From assembly GCA_025464975.1 (NCBI GenBank), contig JAODMT010000023.1, positions 1-54,305 of the forward strand: a stretch of DNA of 54,305 bases, written 5' to 3'. Each line of letters begins with the position of its first letter. Position 1 is the stretch's first letter. Under the pieces are notes generated by a model. That model searched no databases and was not told the DNA's origin. It saw only the letters and a list, made by a program, of their open reading frames with translations. The translations under genes were made by a program, and so were the position numbers. The DNA is from Microbacteriaceae bacterium. GTDB lineage: Bacteria; Actinomycetota; Actinomycetes; Actinomycetales; Microbacteriaceae. Shown piece by piece: positions 9,377 to 20,409 of this stretch.

Positions 9377-9459
9377 GCCGGATTGGCGGAATGGTAGACG
9401 CGGAGCACTCAAAATGCTTTGCTCGAAAGGGCGTGCGGGTTCGAGTCCCGCATCCGGCA
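9377..9459 (+). tRNA. tRNA-Leu (anticodon CAA)
   Basis: The acceptor stem is GCCGGAT (9377-9383) paired with ATCCGGC (9452-9458), followed by discriminator A at 9459. The anticodon arm GAGCA-CTCAAAA-TGCTT gives anticodon CAA, reading UUG. A long variable arm (TGCTC-GAAA-GGGCG) identifies it as a class II leucine tRNA, and the T arm is GCGGG-TTCGAGT-CCCGC. CCA is not encoded. It marks the border between conserved genes (polA, pdtaR) and the accessory block. Confidence 0.97.
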
Positions 9460-9468
9460 CGACAAAAA

Positions 9469-9579: not shown

Positions 9580-11052
9580 TTAAGCCCCGTTCAGCGGCGA
9601 CAGGATGGTCTCGAGCGAACCGGCGAGAGCCATGAGGTCGAGGTCGCTCCAGCGCCTGCCGATCAGCTGAAGGCCGAGAGGCAATCCGTCGATCGTTCCG
9701 AGGGGAATGCTGATGGCCGGATGACCGCTCATGTTCAGTGGATAGGTCAGCGTCCACCCGATGGTGGTCTCCACATCCCGCCCCTCGATGCTCGCCGGAC
9801 CGACGGTCCGGCCCCACTCCCCGTTCCGCACCCCTGCGACGGTCAGGGTGGGCGTTGCGATGACGTCGACATGGGTGAACGCGTCTTCGAGTGCATCGAA
9901 AACCACGGTGCGCAACACGCTGTCGTGCCTGTGTTCGAGCGCGGAAAGCCCGAGCCCGGTTTCGATGAGGGCGGCGAGTTCATCGGGGATCTCATGGCGG
10001 TGGTCGCGGAGCAGGTCCGTCCCCTCGCGAGCGAGAGTTTCCGCATTGAACGCGGTCTGCATGGAGATCAGCCGGAGCCACAGATGTGCGAGCTCCTCGT
10101 GATCGGGCAGCGCGACCGCCAGATCGGTGACCGCGAATGTCGACGAGATGCGATTGACCGCGAGTCGGGTGGCCTCCTGAACCGCGGTCGAGACCGGGAA
10201 GTTGCCGAACGTGGCGTCGTAGCCGATCCGAAACGACTCGACCGAACGGCCGGACCCGGCCGGGGTCGGTGCCCAGGATGGATCGCGCGCCGGTTCGCTC
10301 GCGAAGAGCCCGGTGACGACGCGTGCGTCGGCGACGGTGCGAGCGAGCGCGCCGATGCTCTGGAATGGAATCGACGCCTGGAAAGCGTCCGGTCGACGTT
10401 CCTCGGGGACGGCGAACGCCGATGCCTTCATGCCGACCACGCCGCACATCGCGGCGGGAATTCGCAGCGAGCCGCCGCCATCCGACCCCTGAGCGAGAAC
10501 GCCGAGTCCGGCCGCCACCGAGGCAGCCGCGCCGCCCGAAGATCCGCCGGCGTTGTGGGTGAGGCGATGCGGATTGAGGGTTGGGCCGAACAGCAGGTTG
10601 TCCGTGACGCCCTTGTGACCCATCTCCGGGGTGTTGGTCTTCCCGAGGATCACCGCTCCCGCCCGGCGGAAGCTTCGGACGTGGGGCGGATCGGTAAGCG
10701 AGACGTTGTCCCTCATCGGTTTGAGGCCCATGGTGAAGCGCACGCCAGCCATCGGCTCCACATCCTTCACCGATACCGGGATTCCGTCGAGGGGGCCGAG
10801 GCTCTCCCCCGCCGATCGCCGCCGGTCGGATTCGTCCGCGTCGAGCAAGGCCTGATCGTGGAGAACTGTCACGTACGCGTTAAGGGTCGGGTTGACCCGG
10901 TCGATGCGACGCAAATGAGTTTCGACGAGTTCCCGTGCGCTGAACCGACCGCTGAGCAGACCATCGCTGAGGCTCTCGATCGACTCGAAGCAGAGTTCCT
11001 CATCGCTCGAGGCCGGCCGCAGTGCCTCATCTTCGGAAAGTGAAAGTGTCAC
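9580..11052 (-). CDS. amidase-signature family hydrolase
   Basis: A 490-residue amidase-signature enzyme. The Ser-Ser-Lys machinery is visible: catalytic Lys in IPVSVKD, the glycine/serine-rich core AGGSSGGAAASVAAGLG, and the nucleophile segment GSDGGGSLRIPAAMCGVVGMK. Members hydrolyse amides, carbamates or transamidate Glu-tRNA. The presence of the GatB/GatC partners is not indicated here, and the operon context argues for a catabolic amidase. It is the last gene of the sugar-transport operon; its GTG start overlaps the kinase stop by 4 nt (GTGA). No signal peptide, so cytoplasmic. The exact substrate cannot be read from the sequence. Confidence 0.88.
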   Translation of the reverse strand: MTLSLSEDEALRPASSDEELCFESIESLSDGLLSGRFSARELVETHLRRIDRVNPTLNAYVTVLHDQALLDADESDRRRSAGESLGPLDGIPVSVKDVEPMAGVRFTMGLKPMRDNVSLTDPPHVRSFRRAGAVILGKTNTPEMGHKGVTDNLLFGPTLNPHRLTHNAGGSSGGAAASVAAGLGVLAQGSDGGGSLRIPAAMCGVVGMKASAFAVPEERRPDAFQASIPFQSIGALARTVADARVVTGLFASEPARDPSWAPTPAGSGRSVESFRIGYDATFGNFPVSTAVQEATRLAVNRISSTFAVTDLAVALPDHEELAHLWLRLISMQTAFNAETLAREGTDLLRDHRHEIPDELAALIETGLGLSALEHRHDSVLRTVVFDALEDAFTHVDVIATPTLTVAGVRNGEWGRTVGPASIEGRDVETTIGWTLTYPLNMSGHPAISIPLGTIDGLPLGLQLIGRRWSDLDLMALAGSLETILSPLNGA

Positions 11053-12617
11053 GATGGATGTGCCTCTCGTTTGATTGTCGGATGTTGTTCCGCCGCCTCG
11101 ATGGCCGCGAGGGCGTGCGAAATTGCGGCGGTTTGGTGATAGCCGGCCTTGTACAGTTCGAACATTCGGTCGTACAGCCCCTTGGACGTCCCATCCGGCT
11201 GCACGGGAGGAAGGAACGCGACCGTCGAGACGGCGTCGGTCAGCGAGGGGAATGTGCCGATGCCGACGGCGGCTCGAAGCGCGTCGCCGAGGCTTGCGCC
11301 GACTTGCTGAGCCGGAAGCGATTGCTCGAACCCGCAGACATCCGAGACGATCTGCATGAGCAGCAGGTTTTGTGTCCCGCCGCCAACGGCGAGCACGCGT
11401 TTCACCACGTTGCCCTCGTCGCGCATCGACTCCACGTTGTGACGGATGCCGTAGGCGATCGATTCAAGGACCGCTCTGCAGATATCCGCGCGGGTGTGAC
11501 GCACGGTGAGCCCGAGGAGTGCGCCTCGGGCATCGGGATCGAAGAACGGTGTTCTCTCGCCGACAAGATAGGGCAGAACCAGCAGCCCGTTGGCACCCGG
11601 AATCGACTCGAGCGCGAGGGCGGTCAGATCGGCGAACTCGAGTTCCTCTCCGCCGGAGAGATGGCGCCCGAGTATGTCCCTGGTCCAGGCGACGAGTCCC
11701 CCGGCCATGCCCATCCCGCCGGAGAGCACATGACTTCCGGGCTCGTGGAAGTGCGATGGCCAAAACCGGGTGCTCGCCGGCGCCTCGTGTGTGCGCAAGA
11801 TGAAGAATGCGCTCGTGCCGTACATGATCATCAGATCGCCCTCCTCGCGCATTCCCGCGCTCAGGGCTTCGGCGGCGGCGTCGGCTGTGCCGGCCACCAC
11901 GGGTGTGCCAGCAACCAGCCCCGTGGCCTCGGCCGCCTCCGGCGTCACCGCACCGATCACTTCGCAGCCCCAGGCCAAGCGCGGAAGCAGCGACCTGTCG
12001 CACAGATCGGAATACTCCTCCGACCAGCGCGACCCGGAGACGTCGATGAGCGGAGCGTAGGCAGCAGACGCGTCGTAGACATCCACGACCGCCTCGCCGG
12101 TGAGCTTCTGAATGATGTAGCCCTCCGCGCCCAGAATGCGGTGAGTTCGGGCCCACACCTCCGGCTCGTGATGCTGCAGCCAGAGGATTTTCGGCGCGAC
12201 GGATTGGGAGTCGAGCGCGAGGACCCGCGGATCCCCGTCTCCGAATCGTTCCTTGAGCTCCGCGATCTCTTCGCCTGCTCGAGTGTCGATTCCGTAGAGG
12301 ATCCCCGGGCGAAGCGGCGTTCCGGCCTCGTCAACGGGAAGTACGCACGGGCCGATCGCGCTTACCCCGATGCCCGAGATCTGGGATCCGGCGACCCCCG
12401 ACTCTGCGAGGAGCCTCGCGACCAAAGCGCGGAAGTCCGCCCACCACACCAGGTCCGCATCCTGTTCGAAGTAGCCGGGCCGTGGCATTGCGACGTCGTG
12501 CGCGACTGCGGCCACCGCGATGATCGTGCCGCGCCGATCGACGAGAACCCCCTTCGACGACGCGGTCCCGATGTCGACGCCCAGCGTGTATCGCTCCCCC
12601 GAGTTGGTATTCATCAT
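11049..12617 (-). CDS. FGGY-family carbohydrate kinase (xylulokinase-like)
   Basis: A 522-residue sugar kinase of the FGGY family. The N-terminal phosphate-1 motif is YTLGVDIGTASSKGVLVD; later family features are GTPVVAGTADAAAEAL, LPYLVGERTPFFDPDARGALLGL and the adenosine motif VLAVGGGTQNLLLMQIVSDV. FGGY enzymes phosphorylate sugars or polyols such as xylulose, ribulose, erythritol or glycerol; sequence alone does not fix the substrate, though xylulokinase-like is the closest impression. Two adjacent ATGs (12617, 12614) can serve as the start, 7 nt after the aminopeptidase stop. The ABC transporter upstream presumably supplies the sugar it phosphorylates. Confidence 0.88.
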   Translation of the reverse strand: MMNTNSGERYTLGVDIGTASSKGVLVDRRGTIIAVAAVAHDVAMPRPGYFEQDADLVWWADFRALVARLLAESGVAGSQISGIGVSAIGPCVLPVDEAGTPLRPGILYGIDTRAGEEIAELKERFGDGDPRVLALDSQSVAPKILWLQHHEPEVWARTHRILGAEGYIIQKLTGEAVVDVYDASAAYAPLIDVSGSRWSEEYSDLCDRSLLPRLAWGCEVIGAVTPEAAEATGLVAGTPVVAGTADAAAEALSAGMREEGDLMIMYGTSAFFILRTHEAPASTRFWPSHFHEPGSHVLSGGMGMAGGLVAWTRDILGRHLSGGEELEFADLTALALESIPGANGLLVLPYLVGERTPFFDPDARGALLGLTVRHTRADICRAVLESIAYGIRHNVESMRDEGNVVKRVLAVGGGTQNLLLMQIVSDVCGFEQSLPAQQVGASLGDALRAAVGIGTFPSLTDAVSTVAFLPPVQPDGTSKGLYDRMFELYKAGYHQTAAISHALAAIEAAEQHPTIKREAHPS

Positions 12618-12624
12618 TGCCCGG

Positions 12625-13713
12625 TTAGAAGCTGTACACGCCGCGCTCGAGAACGGTGCGCCCGTCGATCAACACGGAGCCCTCCGTCCTCAAGTCCTTG
12701 ACGATGTCCCAGTGGATCGCCGACACATTGGTGCCTCCGCATTCCGGGTAGGCCCGACCGAGCGCGATGTGCACCGTTCCGGCGATCTTCTCGTCGATCA
12801 GGATGTCGTTGAAGAAGCGATCGATGTGCGGATTCGTGCCGATGCCGAACTCTCCGATCGCGCTGGCGCCCTCGTCCGTTGCGAGGACCGTGCGGAGGAA
12901 GTCCTCGTTCGTGCTGGCGGTTGCTTCCACCAACGTTCCGTGGTCCCAGCGAAGTTTCACTCCCTCGATGAGCCGACCGCCGAACACCGCGGGGTTCTCG
13001 AATTCGATCACGCCGTCGACAGTCTCGGTGACCGGGGCCGTCATCAGTTCGCCGTCGGGAATGTTGATGCCTCCGGCCGCTACGGCCCAGGTGCGACCCT
13101 CGATCGAGAAACGCAGGTCCGTTCCTCTTCCGAGGATCTGCACCGACCGCGCGTCGTGGATGTTGTCCACCCATCCCTGCCACTCGCGGCGAGCCGCGTC
13201 CGAGTCGAGCAGGCAGGCCTTGAAGAACATCTCCGTGACCTCGTCGAGGCTCGAGCCCGCTTGATCGGCGAAGGCCTGATTCGGCACCCGAACAAGCGAC
13301 CAGCGAGTCTGCTTCCACCGCAGTGACGAGATCACCCCCTGCGCAACCTGGTTCGCCGCCAGCCGCTCGGTGGGGATTCCCGCATGGATATCCAGCGGGA
13401 ATCCTCCCCGGAGGGCGATGTACACGTCTGCCCATTCCATCCCGTACGACTCGATCTCCGGCACCCAGGAGAGCTGCTCGTCCGTGCCGAAGCGCAGGAG
13501 CGACTCGCGCATCGTCTCGGAAAGGAACTGAATCTGAGGAAACGCTCCCGCCCGAATGCAGGCCTCATAGACGCCTCTGGCCAACGGGAATGAGTCGGCC
13601 TCCCCCATCGCGATCATGACCCGCTCACCGGCGCTAACCCGAGTTGCCTCGTGAACCAGAAGTCGTCCGATCTCAAACCACCGGGGGTCCTCCGCGATCG
13701 GGGTCGTCGTCAT
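12625..13713 (-). CDS. M29 family aminopeptidase
   Basis: A 362-residue member of the thermophilic-aminopeptidase (AmpS/PepS/AmpT, MEROPS M29) family. The metal-binding C-terminal region is recognisable: IGEFGIGTNPHI, KIAGTVHIALGRAYPECGG and SAIHWDIVKDLR provide the Glu/His/Asp ligands typical of M29. The usual enzyme releases N-terminal residues from peptides and is a cytoplasmic dimer with a large internal cavity. Finding it inside a sugar-uptake operon is odd and suggests a substrate with an amino-acyl or amide link. Its ATG at 13713 overlaps the BtpA stop codon by 4 nt (ATGA). Confidence 0.88.
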   Translation of the reverse strand: MTTTPIAEDPRWFEIGRLLVHEATRVSAGERVMIAMGEADSFPLARGVYEACIRAGAFPQIQFLSETMRESLLRFGTDEQLSWVPEIESYGMEWADVYIALRGGFPLDIHAGIPTERLAANQVAQGVISSLRWKQTRWSLVRVPNQAFADQAGSSLDEVTEMFFKACLLDSDAARREWQGWVDNIHDARSVQILGRGTDLRFSIEGRTWAVAAGGINIPDGELMTAPVTETVDGVIEFENPAVFGGRLIEGVKLRWDHGTLVEATASTNEDFLRTVLATDEGASAIGEFGIGTNPHIDRFFNDILIDEKIAGTVHIALGRAYPECGGTNVSAIHWDIVKDLRTEGSVLIDGRTVLERGVYSF

Positions 13714-14528
13714 CGGGTGGCTACTCCGCGCGCGATCCTCGCGTTGGCGGTCAGTTCGGCGACCCGTGACTCCTCGACCTCGTTCCAGATGTACCCGTCA
13801 CGCTTGAACGCGGTTCCGATGACCGCGCCGTCCGCGATGGAGAGCTGCGCCTCGACCGTCGCCGCGGTGACGCCCGTGTTGGCGAACACCGGAGTGTCGG
13901 GAACCGCGCTCTTCACCACGCGCAGCGTCTCGGAGCTGGTCGCCGCGCCCGCGGTCAGGCCAGACACGCAGAGGGCGTCCGGCCCGGCGTTGAACACTGT
14001 CGAACGCGCGATCGACGCGACGTCACGCTCTCCGACGTACACCGCGGCTTCCGGGACGATGTTGTACAGAAGGCGAACGCCCATGCCGTCCACGGCACGG
14101 CGGTGACGCGCGACCCGGCCGCTGTCGGTGTTCCACAGTCCGTAGTCGCTCGCGTAGACGCCCGTGAACACCTCGCGAACGAACCGCGCGCCGGTGCCGA
14201 CCGCGAGGTCGATCGAAGCGGTCGGGTCCCACAGCACGTTGACCCCGAACGGCACGGTGAGTTCGGAGCGCAGTTCCCCGATGATCCGCGCCATGGTGAT
14301 GGCCGTGATCGGTTCGGTCTTCAAGAGGTAGGGCAGGCTGGCCTCGTTCGAGAACATGACGGCGTCGACCCCGCCGTTCTGGAGGGCGGCGAGATCACGG
14401 CGGGCGGACTCGAGAATGGCCTCGACGCCGGAATCGGAGTCGTACCCGGGGTCACCCGGCAGCGCCCGAAAATGGCACATCGCGATAACGGGCTTCGAGA
14501 CACCGAAGACTTCAGGGATCCAGTTCAT
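13710..14528 (-). CDS. BtpA/SgcQ family protein
   Basis: A 272-residue TIM-barrel-like protein of the BtpA family. Recognisable family segments are KPVIAMCHFRALPGDPGYD near the N-terminus, GGVDAVMFSNEASLPYL, FGVNVLWDPTASIDLAVGTGARFVRE, and the C-terminal VFANTGVTAATVEAQLSIADGAVIGTAFKRDG. BtpA was named from a role in photosystem I stability in cyanobacteria; in non-photosynthetic bacteria the family (including SgcQ) sits in sugar gene clusters and its reaction is unknown. The ATG at 14528 is preceded by AGGAG at a good distance; an upstream in-frame start was rejected. It begins 7 nt after the DeoR stop. A sugar aldolase or isomerase role is a guess from the fold and context. Confidence 0.85.
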   Translation of the reverse strand: MNWIPEVFGVSKPVIAMCHFRALPGDPGYDSDSGVEAILESARRDLAALQNGGVDAVMFSNEASLPYLLKTEPITAITMARIIGELRSELTVPFGVNVLWDPTASIDLAVGTGARFVREVFTGVYASDYGLWNTDSGRVARHRRAVDGMGVRLLYNIVPEAAVYVGERDVASIARSTVFNAGPDALCVSGLTAGAATSSETLRVVKSAVPDTPVFANTGVTAATVEAQLSIADGAVIGTAFKRDGYIWNEVEESRVAELTANARIARGVATR

Positions 14529-14535
14529 TGTTCTC

Positions 14536-15360
14536 CTACTTGCTTTCTTGTTGGTAGTTCGTGGGTCGAGAGGTTCTTGGGTCATGCTCCGGCGGATCGT
14601 TCGCTACAACGACGTTCACTCCGGCCGATTTCAGCGCGGACAGAAGGTCCCCCGCCGGCTCCTCGTCGGTGACGAGGGTGGTGGCCACTTCGAGTCCGGC
14701 GATCCGGGCGAACGCGATCTGTCCGAACTTGCGGGCGTCTGCGACGACGACGACTTCCTTTGCCGATCGGATCATGGCCTGCTTTACGAGCACGTCGTCC
14801 CAGTTGTATTCAGAGAATCCGAACGAGGCATCGATCCCGCCCACTCCGAGGACGAGCCTGTCGACCGACAGCTCGCCGAACGTGTGCCGGGCCAGGTCCC
14901 CGGTGAGCGATGCCTCCCCCGGTCGAACGATTCCTCCGGCGACGATGAGACGGATCTCTGGCTCGTCCACCAGCGCCTCGGCGATCCGGAGTCCCGGGGT
15001 GACGACCGTCAGGTTCCGGCGGCCCCTGAGGCCGTGCGCCACAGCAAGGCAGGTCGAACCGGCGTCGAGGGCCACGCTGTCCCCCTCGGCTATCAGGCTT
15101 GCCGCCAGCTCACCGATCCGCGCTTTTACGTCCACCCTTTCGGCGGTGCGGAGCATATATGGGGGCTCGTAGCTTCGCCCTCGTCCGGTCACCGCACCTC
15201 CGTGCACCCTGCGGGCGAGCGACGCTCGCTCCAGTTCGAGGAGGTCTCGTCGTATCGTCATCGGAGACACCGAAAAACGACTGGCCAGGTGGACGACGGT
15301 GACCGATCCGACATCCTCGAGGTCCTGCAGAATCTGCGACCGGCGGATCGCGGCCTTCAC
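14536..15360 (-). CDS. DeoR/GlpR family transcriptional regulator
   Basis: A 274-residue repressor-type protein. The N-terminal helix-turn-helix is VVHLASRFSVSPMTIRRDLLELE (about residues 22-44), followed by HGGAVTG. The C-terminal DeoR sensor domain contains VALDAGSTCLAVAHGL and LVLGVGGIDASFGFSEYN, resembling phosphosugar-binding isomerase folds. Such proteins usually sense a phosphorylated sugar made by the pathway they repress, here plausibly the FGGY kinase product. The start is GTG at 15360, overlapping the permease stop by 4 nt, so the regulator is cotranscribed with its probable targets. Upstream direct repeats at 20242-20272 are candidate operators. Confidence 0.9.
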   Translation of the reverse strand: MKAAIRRSQILQDLEDVGSVTVVHLASRFSVSPMTIRRDLLELERASLARRVHGGAVTGRGRSYEPPYMLRTAERVDVKARIGELAASLIAEGDSVALDAGSTCLAVAHGLRGRRNLTVVTPGLRIAEALVDEPEIRLIVAGGIVRPGEASLTGDLARHTFGELSVDRLVLGVGGIDASFGFSEYNWDDVLVKQAMIRSAKEVVVVADARKFGQIAFARIAGLEVATTLVTDEEPAGDLLSALKSAGVNVVVANDPPEHDPRTSRPTNYQQESK

Positions 15361-16421
15361 GACCTCGCCTCTGGTTCGGGCGCCCCAGAATCGGTCGGTC
15401 GAATCCGGCCACGGCGCGACCGCGCGAACCGCCGGAACGACAGCCGGCTCGTCGAGACCACGAGAAGCAGCAACAGGCCCCAGGCGAAATTCTTGAAGAA
15501 GTTGCTGTCGCCGTTGTTGACCAGAATCATGTTGAATCCGGTCGAAAGCATCTGCAGCGAGGCGAGCGCCAGGATGACCCCGGCGACGCGCCCCGCGCCC
15601 CCGGAGACGGAGACGCCGCCCAGAACCGCGATGAGGATCGTCAACAGGATGTAGGAAGCGCCGTAACTGGGATTGGCCGAGCTGGTTCTCGCCAGGTTGA
15701 TGATTCCGGCGATGCTCGCGAGCATGCCGCTCGTTCCATACACGGCGAGGGTCACTCGCCCGTTGTTCACGCCGGAGAAGAGCGCGGCCCGAGAATTCGC
15801 GCCGAGCAGATAGGTCTTCACCCCGAGCGGCGTGTGGTTGAGGAATATCCACACCCCGACGATGCACCCGATGAGAATCAGCACCGTGATCGGTATTCCC
15901 GCGATTGCCTGCGTGCCGATGGCCTGCAGGGCGTTGGTTCCTCCGGAGATCGAGACTCCGTTGGTGAGCACTGTCGCCACCCCGCCCCAGAGCGTCATCG
16001 TGGCGAGGGTCGCGAGGATGGGCGGAACTCGCAGCGTTCCGATGAGGAAACCGTTGATGGTGCCGGCGACCGTTCCGACGACCAGCGCGACGAGGATTCC
16101 AACCACCGTGGTCAGACCGTCGGCAAGCCCGGCCGAACTGCAGGAGCGCATCACCATTGCGGCGATTATCGAGGAGAGGTTCGCGACCGCGACGACCGAC
16201 AGGTCGATTCCGGCGAGGATCATCGCGAGTGTCATGGCGAGGCTGAGCACGCCGAGGTCGGAGATCTGCAGGGCCATGGAGCTGAAATTGTCTGCCCGGA
16301 GGAAGGTTTGACCCTCCCAGGCCGAGAGAACGACGAGCACGACCGCGAACACGACGATGAGAACTCGCAGGTGCACATCCCTTGGCCATGCCACGTTTCG
16401 AACGAAGGTCAGTATCTTCAT
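15357..16421 (-). CDS. ABC sugar transporter permease, RbsC type (second)
   Basis: A 354-residue inner-membrane protein of the BPD_transp_2 (ribose/xylose/AI-2) family. Multiple hydrophobic segments are evident from LIVVFAVVLVVLSAW onward, and the family signature region around GVLSLAMTLAMILAGIDLSVVAVANLSSIIAA is conserved. The C-terminal 30 residues are a hydrophilic, Arg-rich tail that ends with overlap into the DeoR start. The ATG at 16421 follows the first permease's stop by 1 nt, so the two permeases are likely made in equal amounts and form a heterodimer. Ligand unknown. Confidence 0.9.
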   Translation of the reverse strand: MKILTFVRNVAWPRDVHLRVLIVVFAVVLVVLSAWEGQTFLRADNFSSMALQISDLGVLSLAMTLAMILAGIDLSVVAVANLSSIIAAMVMRSCSSAGLADGLTTVVGILVALVVGTVAGTINGFLIGTLRVPPILATLATMTLWGGVATVLTNGVSISGGTNALQAIGTQAIAGIPITVLILIGCIVGVWIFLNHTPLGVKTYLLGANSRAALFSGVNNGRVTLAVYGTSGMLASIAGIINLARTSSANPSYGASYILLTILIAVLGGVSVSGGAGRVAGVILALASLQMLSTGFNMILVNNGDSNFFKNFAWGLLLLLVVSTSRLSFRRFARSRRGRIRPTDSGAPEPEARS

Positions 16422-16422
16422 T

Positions 16423-17445
16423 TCACACTCCCCCCACTAGGCGGCGCCTTCGCAACGCTCGGATTGCCGGCACCGTCGTCCCGATGAGCAAGACCACACC
16501 GACGGCGACGTTTTGCCAGGTGGTCGGGACACCGACGAGCACCAGGCTGTTCTCAACGATGCAGATGAGCAGCACCCCGAGCAGGGTTCCGGTGACCGTG
16601 CCCTTTCCCCCCGTGATGAGCGTGCCGCCGAGAACGACAGCGGCGATGACCGCAAGTTCGGTGCCTTGGAGACTGATCGGGTTGGCGTTGCGGTAAAGAG
16701 AGGCGTTCGTGACACCGGCCACCGCGGCCAAGGCACCGACGAGGCCGTAAACGAAGTACTGGACCCTGGCGACCCTCACCCCGGATCGTTCGGCAACCGC
16801 ACGATTGTCTCCCAACGCATAGATGGAGCGCCCGAGCGTCGTCTTGTTCAAGACCAGCGAGATCACCACGGCGAGTGCCAGCAGGATCAGGACCGACGGA
16901 TTCAACGACGCAGTTCCGACTCCGCTCGCTGTGCGCACGGTCAGGAGCGACGCGTTCGACAGATCAACCGTGCCGGAGGGGAGCTTGAAGATGGACACTC
17001 CGCCGAAGAAGTACAGTTCCGCCCCGTAGTAGAGACTCGAGGTTCCGAGGGTGACGATGAGTGTCGGGACCCGGAACCGCGAAATGAAGAAGCCGTTGAT
17101 CAGCCCCATGAAGATGCCGAAGGGAAGGGCGACCAGATAGAGCACGATGCCGGAGCCGTTGAAGTGCGCCGCCACGAGGATGGTCGCACCGATGAAGACC
17201 GCCGTGTCGGCGATTGCGGGGAACGACACGTCGACGCCGCCGGAGATCAAGACCAACAGCACCCCGAGAGCGAGAATCCCGCTCACCGTGGCGAGTCGAA
17301 CGATGTCGAAGACGTTAGACAGGCTCAGGAAGGCCGGGTTGATTGCGGTGATGACGGCGGAGAGAACGACGATGACCAGGGCGATGATGATCTCCTGGGA
17401 TCGCATGGCCCTTCGCAGCCCAACGCGCTGGAATGACTCGGTCAT
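16423..17445 (-). CDS. ABC sugar transporter permease, RbsC type (first)
   Basis: A 340-residue membrane protein of the same BPD_transp_2 family as its neighbour. Recognisable stretches are IIIALVIVVLSAVITAINPAFLS (first membrane segment), GVLLVLISGGVDVSFPAIAD, and the cytoplasmic EAA-like loop near LPFGIFMGLINGFFISRFRVPTLIVTLGT that would contact the ATPase. The C-terminal part has LAVIAAVVLGGTLITGGKGTVTGTLLG, typical of the family. The ATG at 17445 overlaps the ATPase stop by 4 nt (ATGA). Two distinct permeases rather than one homodimeric RbsC is the arrangement seen in AI-2 (LsrC/LsrD) and rhamnose importers. Confidence 0.9.
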   Translation of the reverse strand: MTESFQRVGLRRAMRSQEIIIALVIVVLSAVITAINPAFLSLSNVFDIVRLATVSGILALGVLLVLISGGVDVSFPAIADTAVFIGATILVAAHFNGSGIVLYLVALPFGIFMGLINGFFISRFRVPTLIVTLGTSSLYYGAELYFFGGVSIFKLPSGTVDLSNASLLTVRTASGVGTASLNPSVLILLALAVVISLVLNKTTLGRSIYALGDNRAVAERSGVRVARVQYFVYGLVGALAAVAGVTNASLYRNANPISLQGTELAVIAAVVLGGTLITGGKGTVTGTLLGVLLICIVENSLVLVGVPTTWQNVAVGVVLLIGTTVPAIRALRRRRLVGGV

Positions 17446-18938
17446 GCGGCCACCAACAATTCACCGAGACGCTGCTCGTCGATCTCTGCCCGAAGGAATT
17501 CGTTGGCGACACGACCGTCGCGCATCACGGCTATCCGATGGCACACCTCGAGAAGCTCCGGAATATCGTCGGAGATGACGATGATGCCCATCCCCTGTCC
17601 GGCCAGCTCCCGCAGGAGTTGCAGAATCTCGGACTTCGAGCCCACGTCCACCCCCACGGTTGGTCCGTTCAATATGAGGATCTTCGGCGCCGCCGAGAGC
17701 CACTTAGCGAGCACGACCCGCTGCTGATTCCCGCCCGAGAGCGTGCTCACCGCGCGCGCGATGTCTGGCGTCTTGATGCGCAAGTCCTCCACCCATCTGT
17801 TTGCCGTTTCGTTTGCCTTGCGAGTGTCGAGAAGCCCGGCCTTGTTCCTGAGCGAGTCGATCGTTCGGATGATGATGTTGGCCCCGATGGAATGGTCAAG
17901 GAACAGTCCTTCGGTCAATCGGTCTTCCGGAACGAAGCCGATGCCGTTGCGCATTGCCGTGCGCGGAGAGTCCAGCCGCACCGTCTTGCCGTCGATGACG
18001 AGGGTCCCGTCGGTCATCGACAAGAGTCCAAAGAGGGCGAGCGCGAGAGTGTCCCGGCCCGAACCGAGCAATCCGGTGACTCCGAGGATCTCTCCGGCCC
18101 GCAACTCGAGGTTCACATCGGTGAAACAGCCCGGTCTGGTTCCTCCCCGCAGAGACATGAGCGTCGGACTCGCCGGATCGAGCGGAATCACCGCCTCGGC
18201 GCCAAACTCGATCTCTCTGCCGGTCATCGCCGAAACCAGTGAACGGCGATCGAATTCTGCGGCCGGGCTGTCGGCAACCTTCACTCCGTTGCGGATGACG
18301 ATCGTGTGGTCGGAAATCGCCGCGACCTCATCGAGCTTGTGGCTCACGAACAGGGTGGAGACTCCCTGTTCCTTCAGTCCGAGGATGATATCGAGCAGCA
18401 CGCGGACTTCGCGTTGCGAAAGCGCGGTGGTCGGTTCGTCCATGACGATCAGACGGGCATCCTTGGCCAGCGCGCCGGCGATGGCAACCAACTGACGATC
18501 GACCATCGGCAGGTCGTGCACGTACGCGTCGACGTCGATCGCCACGCGCATCCGCTCGAGTACCTTCCGTGCCTCTTTCCTGGCGCGACCGCGGTGGAAC
18601 CAGCGCACTCCGCCGACCACCTGGCTGCCGAACACAATGTTCTCGGCGACGGTGAGGTGCGGGAACAACGAGAAGTCCTGGTAGATCACCTGAAAGCCGA
18701 GGCCGATGGCGTCACTCGGCTTGTATGAATCGCGAGACACCCCGTCCACGAGAATCGTGCCGGAGCTCGGTGGCTGCACTCCAGCCAAAATCTTGATGAG
18801 TGTCGATTTTCCCGACCCGTTTTCGCCAACCAGGCAGCACACTTCTCCCGCCCGGATGGAGAGGGAGACGTCATTGAGTGCCTGTACGCCGGAGAATTCT
18901 CTGCTGATGTTCTTCAGGGTCAACAGTTCTTGTGTCAC
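17442..18938 (-). CDS. ABC sugar transporter ATPase with two nucleotide-binding domains (RbsA type)
   Basis: A 498-residue fused double ATPase. The first domain has Walker A GENGSGKST, a degenerate signature region (PMVDRQLVAIAGAL) and Walker B LIVMDEP. The second has the family's usual degenerate P-loop (GLLGSGRDTLALALFG), a clean signature LSGGNQQRVVLAKWL, but ILILNGPTVGVDVG instead of the usual ILDEPTxGVD, so the Walker B aspartate and catalytic glutamate are replaced. It probably energises the two permeases with one competent composite site. The GTG start at 18938 gives the canonical N-terminus LLTLKNISREFSGVQAL. It follows two hairpins downstream of the binding-protein gene. Confidence 0.92.
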   Translation of the reverse strand: MTQELLTLKNISREFSGVQALNDVSLSIRAGEVCCLVGENGSGKSTLIKILAGVQPPSSGTILVDGVSRDSYKPSDAIGLGFQVIYQDFSLFPHLTVAENIVFGSQVVGGVRWFHRGRARKEARKVLERMRVAIDVDAYVHDLPMVDRQLVAIAGALAKDARLIVMDEPTTALSQREVRVLLDIILGLKEQGVSTLFVSHKLDEVAAISDHTIVIRNGVKVADSPAAEFDRRSLVSAMTGREIEFGAEAVIPLDPASPTLMSLRGGTRPGCFTDVNLELRAGEILGVTGLLGSGRDTLALALFGLLSMTDGTLVIDGKTVRLDSPRTAMRNGIGFVPEDRLTEGLFLDHSIGANIIIRTIDSLRNKAGLLDTRKANETANRWVEDLRIKTPDIARAVSTLSGGNQQRVVLAKWLSAAPKILILNGPTVGVDVGSKSEILQLLRELAGQGMGIIVISDDIPELLEVCHRIAVMRDGRVANEFLRAEIDEQRLGELLVAA

Positions 18939-18987
18939 GTATTTCTGCTCCGTGGTTGGATGGCGGACGAGTGGACGACTGGTGCCT

Positions 18988-19044
18988 CTCCGGCCATCTG
19001 AGCGATCCCGATGGCCGGAGAAGCGACAGCCGCAGTCGCGGCTG
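18988..19044 (-). other. two intercistronic hairpins after the binding-protein gene
   Basis: A 7-bp stem with 4-nt loop (19027-19033 with 19038-19044) and, 6 nt further on, a perfect 11-bp stem with 11-nt loop (18988-18998 with 19010-19020). They fill most of the 112-nt gap between the binding-protein stop and the ATPase start, the longest gap within the operon. Without a U-tract they look like an mRNA-stabilising or partial-termination element that lets the binding protein be made in excess, as is common for binding-protein transporters. Confidence 0.6.
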
Positions 19045-19050
19045 GGTGAC

Positions 19051-20100
19051 CTAGAAGTTGTACTTCGACATGTTCGCTTTGGTGATGTCGACCCAGCCGG
19101 TCCCCTGCACCGTCTTGCCCGTGACCGTGACTTTGTTGTAGCCGGGCACGCCGAGGTTCGTCCCCGTGGCGATCTTCTTTCCCTCAAGAACGAACTGGGC
19201 AACCTTGTTGCCGGCCATACCGTGGGCGGCCGGGTCCCAGGTCGAGATCTGCGTGATCGCGCCGCTCTTCAGAAGGTCACCGGCATAGGACACGATGCTG
19301 GTGCCGATGACCGCGATCTTGCCGGATAGGCCCGCATCCTGCACGGCCTGGCCCGCTCCAACGACGTCATATGAATCGGCGCCGAGCATTCCCTTGAGGT
19401 TCGGGTACTTCTGCATCATCTGCTTCATCTCGGCATACGACTTCGACTGTACGGAGTCGGTGACGTTGGTGTCGCCAACCTTGCTCATCTTGGGATATTT
19501 CTGCTTCTGGTATGCCACGGCGGCGTTGGTCCACGCGATCTGTGACTGGCTGTTGAGCGCCCCGACGAAGATGGTGTACTGGCCCTGGTCGCCCATCTTC
19601 TTGGCAAGCTGGTCCATCATGTGCCTGCCGTAGGCGGCGTTGTCGAACGGCTCAACGTCGTAGAGAGCGTTCTTGACCCCGGGCGACTCGAGAGCAACCA
19701 CGACGACCCCCTGGGACGTCGCCTGCTTCATCACGGACTCGGCGGTCGATACCTCGATCGGGTCGATGATGAGCGCATCCAGATTCTGGGAGAGCATGTC
19801 TTGCGCGACCTGGTTCTCCTGCGCGGGGTCGGGCTGCGACGGGCCCTGTTCGAATGCGTTGATGCCGGTGTCCTTGCCGAACTGCTTGACGCCGGTCTCC
19901 ATGCGGACGAACCAGTTGAAGCCCATCGACTTCACTACGGTTCCAAACTTGAGCTGGGACGCGCTCTTGCCGGTTCCATTCCACTTCGACGACGACGACG
20001 CTCCGGCCGTCGGAGTCGTTCCGACGGCACTCGAACACGCGGCGAGCGACACGGACAGCGCTGCAGCCGCGACGACTGTGATCAGCCGGGACCTCTTCAT
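19051..20100 (-). CDS. periplasmic-type sugar-binding lipoprotein of an ABC importer
   Basis: A 349-residue lipoprotein. Residues 1-22 are a lipoprotein signal peptide (MKRSRLITVVAAAALSVSLAAC) with lipobox SLAAC and lipidated Cys22, followed by a Ser/Thr-rich linker. The mature part is a type I periplasmic-binding fold (Peripla_BP_4): MGFNWFVRMETGVKQF, QNLDALIIDPIEVSTAESVMKQA and GVVVVALESPGV are the familiar segments, and a later VIGTSIVSY fits. The start is ATG 20100, with AAAGG upstream; 13 extra upstream residues in frame were rejected. It heads the operon and would deliver the unknown sugar to the two permeases. Confidence 0.9.
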   Translation of the reverse strand: MKRSRLITVVAAAALSVSLAACSSAVGTTPTAGASSSSKWNGTGKSASQLKFGTVVKSMGFNWFVRMETGVKQFGKDTGINAFEQGPSQPDPAQENQVAQDMLSQNLDALIIDPIEVSTAESVMKQATSQGVVVVALESPGVKNALYDVEPFDNAAYGRHMMDQLAKKMGDQGQYTIFVGALNSQSQIAWTNAAVAYQKQKYPKMSKVGDTNVTDSVQSKSYAEMKQMMQKYPNLKGMLGADSYDVVGAGQAVQDAGLSGKIAVIGTSIVSYAGDLLKSGAITQISTWDPAAHGMAGNKVAQFVLEGKKIATGTNLGVPGYNKVTVTGKTVQGTGWVDITKANMSKYNF

Positions 20101-20409
20101 GGCAAACCTTTCGTGAACAGAAAAAAGATGATTGTTCAAACACTGGGGATGTTCGTAGTGTCGGAATCAGCAAAAGCTAACAGTGAGAGTGGCGCAGTCC
20201 CGAACCCGTGAAGGCGCCGAGAGGCCCCCTGCCCGCCCAGTGTTTCCGGAAGGTGTCAGACAGGTTTCCGGAGTGTTTCGGTTCAGCGAGAATTCGCGAG
20301 AAAAGGAACACGCTTCGGCGAAGTGAACATTTCTGCCGGGTCGCTCAGCGATCCACCGGCCTTTGTAAATTCTGTGTTGCTTCCCCGGGTTGGAAACCGG
20401 GAAACCGCG
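20101..20409. promoter_or_regulatory. 309-nt non-coding region upstream of the sugar operon
   Basis: No convincing gene lies here. It must contain the operon promoter (minus strand), but no clear -35/-10 pair could be fixed by eye. Next to the methyltransferase end is a weak CCCGG/CCGGG hairpin (20384-20401). The most distinct elements are the direct repeats at 20242-20272, described separately. Confidence 0.45.
20242..20272. repeat. direct repeats, candidate DeoR operator
   Basis: GTTTCCGGA occurs at 20242-20250 and again at 20264-20272, 22 bp apart (two helical turns), and the related GTGTTTCGG follows at 20274-20282. The repeats lie about 140-180 bp upstream of the binding-protein start. 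DeoR-family repressors often bind direct repeats spaced at helical multiples, so this is a plausible operator for the regulator encoded in the same operon. Confidence 0.35.

Follow-up and report, generated by a model that had tools for sequence, protein, structure and literature searches.

The window analyzed here is a 54,305-nucleotide (nt) stretch of a 3.22-Mb Microbacteriaceae genome (G000:C6:1-54305), and it carries a run of nine genes on the minus strand, from position 20100 down to 9580, in which the genes of a sugar transporter and a regulator are followed by those of a BtpA/SgcQ-family protein, a metallo-aminopeptidase-like protein of family M29, an FGGY carbohydrate kinase, and an amidase-signature enzyme. 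The first gene (19051..20100, ATG start) encodes a substrate-binding lipoprotein (SBP; Peripla_BP_4) of the AauA/5bra type. Behind it, across a 112-nt gap (18939..19050), lie the gene of a double ATPase of the RbsA/AraG type (CUT2; 17442..18938, GTG start), with ABC_tran in two stretches, and those of two BPD_transp_2 permeases, the first of the RbsC/AraH type and overlapping the ATPase gene by 4 nt (16423..17445), the second separated from the first by 1 nt (15357..16421). The DeoR/GlpR-family regulator (HTH_DeoR plus DeoRC; 14536..15360, GTG start) overlaps permease 2 by 4 nt, and 7 nt further on comes the BtpA gene (13710..14528), assigned by Pfam, NCBIfam, and a structure model. The M29 gene (Peptidase_M29; 12625..13713) overlaps BtpA by 4 nt, the kinase gene (FGGY_N plus FGGY_C; 11049..12617) follows after another 7-nt gap, and the amidase gene (9580..11052, GTG start), for whose product the nearest solved relative is an aryl acylamidase, overlaps the kinase gene by 4 nt.

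Open reading frame (ORF) calls and Pfam bear out the minus-strand operon in the order given by an earlier, sequence-only reading of this DNA, with the Pfam families of all nine proteins each above cut-off, and the spacing described there is exact: from the ATPase to the amidase, neighboring genes either overlap by 4 nt or lie 1–7 nt apart. Among the NCBIfam matches listed for the nine proteins, none reaches an equivalog cut-off, and only the BtpA/SgcQ subfamily model is passed. Folding of the 112-nt gap together with some adjoining bases gives a strong stem-loop (-54 kcal/mol, z -4.3). No sigma-70 promoter was found in the window between 20050 and 20450; an inverted repeat at 20245-20272, TCCGGAA/TTCCGGA, is a candidate operator.

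We scanned the M29 protein against genome contigs and took the best 80 of 162 relatives (39–99% identity), with flanks of up to 10 kb. These are 80 loci, not 80 genomes, and some share one metagenome-assembled genome (MAG). The M29 of one Microbacteriaceae MAG (L014) is 99% identical to that of the window, and by record title the set spans Microbacteriaceae, Pseudonocardia (with the culturable P. kunmingensis, L019), Anaerolineae, Spirochaetes, Atribacteria, Desulfobacterales, Verrucomicrobia, Enterovibrio, Oscillospiraceae, and others. FGGY is present at 69 of the 80 loci, BtpA at 64, DeoR at 34, and a CUT2 binding protein at 30. At the 47 loci with at least 5 kb on each side, M29 is accompanied by BtpA in 42 cases (38 on the same strand) and by FGGY in 41 (39 on the same strand). 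The well-flanked loci without BtpA are L060, L081, L023, L025, and L046, and those without FGGY are L060, L062, L070, L020, L022, and L046; a BtpA match was found in all 24 genomes queried, which include those of L060 and L081 and do not include those of L023, L025, and L046. Across the 52 of the 80 loci with full-length genes, pairwise distances among M29, BtpA, and FGGY are correlated (r = 0.56, 0.65, and 0.78; none of 999 permutations reached these values), a pattern consistent with the genes having been transferred or inherited together. Some operons (L040; L042, from Bellilinea; L044, from Anaerolinea) contain little besides transporter, DeoR, M29, FGGY, and BtpA, and some loci pair M29 and BtpA with other transporters. 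Near the other actinobacterial M29 proteins (35–41% identical; 33 matches, 29 after omission of four without a locus), BtpA or FGGY was found at 0 of 29 loci, for which flanks extend only ~1.5 kb.

M29, FGGY, and BtpA form a conserved core, and the gene set is not a chance assembly. The sequence-only reading had staked its proposal on these genes staying together in relatives; M29, BtpA, and FGGY do so, and transporter and DeoR join them in many loci. Its description of an undescribed catabolic set has likewise held up, for the genes are kept together and we found no set like it in open-licence PubMed Central (PMC) papers. In that literature we found no paper joining BtpA with FGGY and an ABC transporter, M29 with FGGY and aminopeptidase, or BtpA with a sugar kinase and aminopeptidase. 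It is very likely that the catabolic gene set is undescribed.

Several M29 loci carry additional genes. Twelve of them, mostly from Chloroflexi (L065-L069, L072-L074, L078, L080, L082, L083), have one or two IF-2B-family genes near M29, which we take to be MtnA-like, and some of the twelve have a peptide-type (Dpp) transporter. Loci from Desulfobacterales and related bacteria (L028, L035, L061) show M24-type and creatininase-family genes behind M29–FGGY. In six spirochaete loci (L030, L032, L038, L047, L054, L089), BtpA–M29–FGGY occurs with Dak1-family genes ahead of an ABC transporter of the same type, with a ureidoglycolate-lyase-like protein encoded on the opposite strand. An Oscillospiraceae locus (L064, 7804-11074) carries M42, FGGY, and BtpA beside a tandem run of three M29 genes, and one same-genus genome, G002, has two M29 copies, on contigs C133 and C134 (86% and 88% identical to the window's), through duplication or a mixed bin.

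The amidase does not belong to this core. It matches Pfam PF01425 at 296.3 bits (cut-off 27), and no NCBIfam cut-off is reached among the best 25 of its 26 matches. At more than 80 bits, an amidase occurs at one of the 80 M29 loci (L018), and L014 has a fragment cut short (66 bits), both being Microbacteriaceae MAGs. The same three of 13 same-genus genomes hold both M29 and amidase; in G002, a 487-amino-acid amidase ORF lies 54 nt behind the kinase gene, and the DNA downstream of it has no match to the tRNA-Leu/polA region. Because none of the 47 well-flanked relatives and only these three same-genus genomes carry it, the amidase is ruled out as a core gene, and the 'two amide hydrolases' that had been put forward as the defining pair are not one. 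Within the loci and genomes examined, the amidase is an addition at the level of the genus, and one that was retained.

The operon as a whole is an accessory insert beside tRNA-Leu. The insertion site is the interval from the tRNA-Leu(CAA) gene (9377..9460, plus strand), which is convergent with the operon and marks its edge, to a methyltransferase gene (20410) that lies past the far end of the operon in the window. The same-genus genome G004 is operon-free, its polA–tRNA-Leu stretch being followed within ~300 nt by methyltransferase-gene sequence, and in G007, which also has no match to the operon, ~11.8 kb of other DNA separates tRNA-Leu from where the match resumes. It is this pairing of an empty site with one filled by other DNA that makes the operon accessory. 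In the window's genome and in G010, the operon lies beside tRNA-Leu.

The M29 protein matches PF02073 at 194.5 bits (cut-off 27) and has retained the catalytic motif of its family. Six residues, EEHYHD, are described as essential in LmAmpII (PMC7023490), and the window protein has them as E222, E288, H315, Y322, H334, and D336. Across 60 M29 sequences, E, E, H, H, and D are present in 60 of 60 and Y in 59; a broader alignment, with 80 rows, shows the tyrosine in 76 of them and each of His334 and Asp336 in 78. Its model superposes on PepS, AmpT, and AmpS at a query template-modeling score (TM) of 0.70-0.87. A NicX-type dioxygenase, of related fold, was considered and rejected (profile E 0.49; query TM 0.55-0.59 to 7cn3/7cup, versus 0.70-0.87 for the M29 peptidases). 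The window protein is thus like AmpS, AmpT, PepS, and AmpII in fold and motif, and differs from them in being smaller by ~50 residues than those with solved structures, in having R132 and R142, and in standing mostly in sugar-operon context. Both arginines are invariant in the 80 operon-type M29 proteins; among 29 controls, R142 occurs in none (27 have Leu) and R132 in three. From the alignment, R132 and R142 hint at a changed substrate specificity in this clade.

The best three solved relatives of the SBP are 5bra, 3d02, and 9i1m, the last being AauA, a D-ribulose-binding protein with a dissociation constant of about 2 uM (PMC12307932). In the description given there, AauA contacts D-ribulose, as a free ketose, through K37, W43, E118, H167, E196, and S223, with contacts for C2-C5 and none for C1 (PMC12307932). 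The window SBP is 36% identical to AauA over 264 positions and keeps K57, W63, E138, and S243 of this pocket; the histidine is replaced by Q187, and at the position of E196 the window has D or S, according to how the sequences are aligned. When the window SBP was aligned with 28 SBPs of M29 loci (ORFs of up to 280 amino acids or up to 100 bits excluded), K, W, and E were present in all 29 proteins and H in 25 of them, and S223 was kept in the window SBP alone. Since K, W, and E of the D-ribulose pocket are retained, the ligand is probably ribulose-like at C2-C3; as H is Q and E196 is not kept in the window's group, it is probably unlike D-ribulose toward C4/C5. The kinase scores above cut-off for FGGY_N (147.7 bits) and FGGY_C (125.8 bits), and its best match among the NCBIfam models listed, xylulokinase TIGR01312, stays at 300.5 bits, below the cut-off of 380.25. 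A simple xylulose or D-ribulose operon was set aside: the kinase falls short of the xylulokinase cut-off, and such an operon leaves BtpA and M29 unexplained.

The BtpA protein exceeds the cut-offs of Pfam PF03437 (273 bits against 30) and TIGR00259 (283.8 against 153.4) and falls short of that of the photosystem I biogenesis equivalog NF045918 (132.7 bits against 400). Its structure model has a mean predicted local distance difference test score of 94.3, and the best 50 Foldseek matches in the PDB are barrels at query TM 0.51-0.62, with PcrB, ribulose-phosphate 3-epimerase, KDPGal aldolase, HisF, TrpA, TrpC, and dihydropteroate synthase as neighbors. By profile, TrpA is the top match in sequence (positions 190-241, E 0.006), and an alignment of 42 sequences has 32 invariant columns; K242, E62, E119, and E160 are invariant. 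On the model, the superfamily is clear, a phosphate-binding TIM barrel, the nearest enzyme is not, and phosphate binding is likely. A predicted phosphate-binding barrel would place BtpA probably after the kinase, and it is compatible with the aldolase or isomerase role suggested earlier without establishing it. Among the matches listed in open-licence PMC papers, none was found to assign BtpA a reaction. Distant BtpA proteins (24–31% identical) occur in another shared gene set with a sugar kinase and C-N enzymes (L124-L127), in the order LacI (three of four), SBP, ABC transporter, phosphotriesterase-like, glutamine amidotransferase-like, PfkB/ribokinase, BtpA, and TenA or a Zn-dependent hydrolase.

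We also drew loci by BtpA, without regard to M29 (E <= 1e-75; 396, 201, 198, and 299 genomes of four phyla), obtaining 20 matches; four were set aside (the window, two centre genomes, and G460, which the M29 set already contained), and the remaining 16 were all fetched. A set of 15 plasmid BtpA loci, by comparison, was hand-picked. M29 is found in three of the 16 (L158, L166, and L164, the last probably the same as L063). Three others have M42, an unrelated metallo-aminopeptidase family: L167, an sgc-type operon; L169, a same-strand FGGY–M42–BtpA run; and L165, which is cut at a contig end. M24 occurs once (L156), as does a fucose-isomerase-type protein (L157). FGGY is the kinase at 13 loci (weak in L159, 78 bits), and a Gat-type phosphotransferase system (PTS) is present at two. 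Where BtpA is at least 54% identical to that of the window, six of eight loci have M29, M42, or M24; of the remaining eight, one has M42. In a quick BtpA tree (74 rows, with the Shimodaira–Hasegawa-like approximate likelihood ratio test as sole support), SgcQ and two rhizobial BtpA proteins with PIG-L deacetylase neighbors fall inside a clade of M29-linked BtpA, a label that reflects how the rows were fetched. In other BtpA operons, then, M42 stands in the place of M29, and that unrelated peptidase families fill one role supports a hydrolytic step, though not a universal one.

Among known systems, the fructose-asparagine and fructoselysine operons combine a sugar kinase with an enzyme that splits the phosphorylated sugar-amine, with an amide hydrolase in the fructose-asparagine case, and they use other enzyme families throughout. 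A close likeness is the sgc operon of E. coli and Salmonella (sgcXBCQAER), whose SgcQ is 59–61% identical to the window BtpA (Salmonella SgcQ, 60.7%). Like the window, sgc clusters a metallo-aminopeptidase-family protein, a sugar-phosphorylating uptake system, and DeoR; unlike the window, it has M42 for M29, a Gat-type PTS for the ABC transporter and FGGY, and an extra ribulose-phosphate-epimerase-like protein. Under a working definition of sgc-like gene content (SgcQ-clade BtpA, a metallo-aminopeptidase-family gene, a sugar-phosphorylating enzyme, and DeoR), the window operon is sgc-like, a matter of likeness and not of membership: among its nine genes there is none of the sgc operon proper (M42 SgcX, PTS SgcABC, epimerase-like SgcE). 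The sgc operon has been called an uptake system for an unknown sugar (PMC5797941). In July 2026 its substrate and function were reported as unknown, with unusual carbohydrate or pentitol metabolism proposed by the authors, who describe a 16-25-fold induction on nitrogen-containing slow-growth substrates and deletion mutants without a growth defect (PMC13343008). The D-ribulose systems Aau, of enterohemorrhagic E. coli, and Rbl, of Citrobacter rodentium, share with the window an ABC transporter, a related SBP with K, W, and E, and, in Rbl, an FGGY kinase; they differ in that the SBP is only 36% identical and in that the words BtpA and aminopeptidase are absent from the main text describing them (PMC12307932).

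The best single reading, which we hold tentatively and at somewhat less than even odds, is that this accessory operon catabolizes a sugar bearing an aminoacyl or amide link by a route of hydrolase, kinase, and BtpA. The CUT2 transporter with its AauA-like SBP would import a small ribulose-like sugar (ketopentose or furanose) with an aminoacyl or amide substituent; M29, a dinuclear metallo-hydrolase, would strip the substituent from the sugar, with the amidase-signature enzyme, in this genus, assisting M29 or widening its range; the FGGY kinase would phosphorylate the freed sugar; and BtpA would turn the sugar phosphate into an intermediate of central metabolism by retro-aldol cleavage, epimerization, or isomerization. 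DeoR would repress the operon until an inducer is present. What the substrate is, in which order the steps run, how the genes are regulated, and each reaction of this proposed pathway are inferred.

Several observations weigh against this reading. The clade M29 proteins carry two invariant arginines mostly absent from non-operon relatives, and their Y–H spacing is 12 residues, versus 26 in LmAmpII; to judge from these features, peptide-bond chemistry may not have been kept. The window SBP has Q for the AauA histidine, and the E196 position is lost in the window's own group. M29, M42, M24, and the fucose-isomerase type are all absent from eight of the 16 BtpA loci (L159, L160, L168, and five of one arrangement, from Chloroflexi); the clearest exception among them is L159 (BtpA 58% identical), where genes for a CUT2 transporter stand with FGGY, BtpA, and DeoR and none of these hydrolases is encoded within 18 kb. 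The membership of M24 in the L156 operon is doubtful because its gene lies on the opposite strand and ~1.2 kb from BtpA, and M42 is not always a replacement for M29, since L064 holds it in addition to three M29 genes. The earlier proposal of a sugar with an amide or aminoacyl link is plausible as regards the kept M29 motif and the substitution by M42 elsewhere, and the hydrolase-free BtpA–FGGY operons count against it.

Some of these observations feed an alternative that we regard as rather unlikely, in which the operon takes in a plain if unusual ketose or a precursor of one, M29 (M42 elsewhere) has come to serve as a metal-dependent isomerase, epimerase, or lactonase rather than as an amide hydrolase, and FGGY phosphorylates the product for epimerization or cleavage by BtpA. 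The two signature arginines suit such a recruitment; the short operons L040, L042, and L044 show no other isomerase or dehydrogenase that would feed the kinase; the M29-free BtpA clusters often have a short-chain dehydrogenase/reductase near FGGY or BtpA, and L157 its fucose-isomerase-type protein, either of which could make a ketose; L159 does with transporter, FGGY, and BtpA in the absence of M29, M42, and M24; and the ligand described for AauA is a free ketose (PMC12307932). Yet the catalytic residues of the M29 peptidases are kept, and the use of two unrelated peptidase folds, M29 and M42, is more easily explained by hydrolysis than by isomerization.

Doubtful, and less probable again, is an order in which the kinase acts first: FGGY (or PTS, or, in distant operons, PfkB) would phosphorylate an intact N-linked sugar, for example a ribulosamine (Amadori-type) or nucleoside-like compound, BtpA would split the sugar–nitrogen bond of the phosphate, and the nitrogen part would be broken down, or trimmed beforehand, by the hydrolases. 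An AauA-type pocket could accommodate a C1 substituent, because the published description gives no C1 contacts (PMC12307932). The 16-25-fold induction of E. coli sgc in nitrogen-containing conditions is in keeping with such a substrate, but it is only a correlation over growth conditions (PMC13343008). BtpA clusters also join a sugar kinase or transporter to enzymes of C-N bonds, namely PIG-L deacetylase, gamma-glutamyltransferase, the phosphotriesterase-like, glutamine amidotransferase-like, and TenA or Zn-hydrolase proteins beside a PfkB-type kinase, and creatininase with M24. BtpA itself, however, resembles members of the phosphate-binding barrel superfamily that act as epimerases or aldolases, and to our knowledge it is unlike the known deglycases. 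Finally, an ordinary operon for D-ribulose or a similar pentulose, in which transporter and kinase suffice, with M29, BtpA, and the amidase as bystanders or housekeeping peptidases, has a precedent in C. rodentium, where Rbl uses D-ribulose through an Aau-like transporter, a dedicated D-ribulokinase, and an isomerase gene in the operon (PMC12307932), but it is very improbable here, given that M29 (53% mean identity) and BtpA (59%) are more conserved over loci than the kinase (41%) and that some loci retain M29 and BtpA beside other transporters.

It is possible, with odds we would put at roughly one in three, that BtpA/SgcQ proteins are the phosphate-stage enzymes of a widespread, undescribed salvage of sugars joined to amino acids or amides, with interchangeable metallo-aminopeptidases, M29 or M42 (perhaps M24), for the first, hydrolytic step and with FGGY or PTS for phosphorylation. 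Such a pathway would also account for the orphan sgc operon, which sits in laboratory E. coli and is reported to be still without substrate or function (PMC13343008). The conserved enzyme trio, together with an SBP that has a relative with a solved pocket, allows short lists of substrates to be drawn up, offers three enzymes that can be purified, and so makes the orphan BtpA and sgc systems testable. It further suggests that some 'aminopeptidases' in sugar operons are enzymes of the pathway, not housekeeping peptidases.

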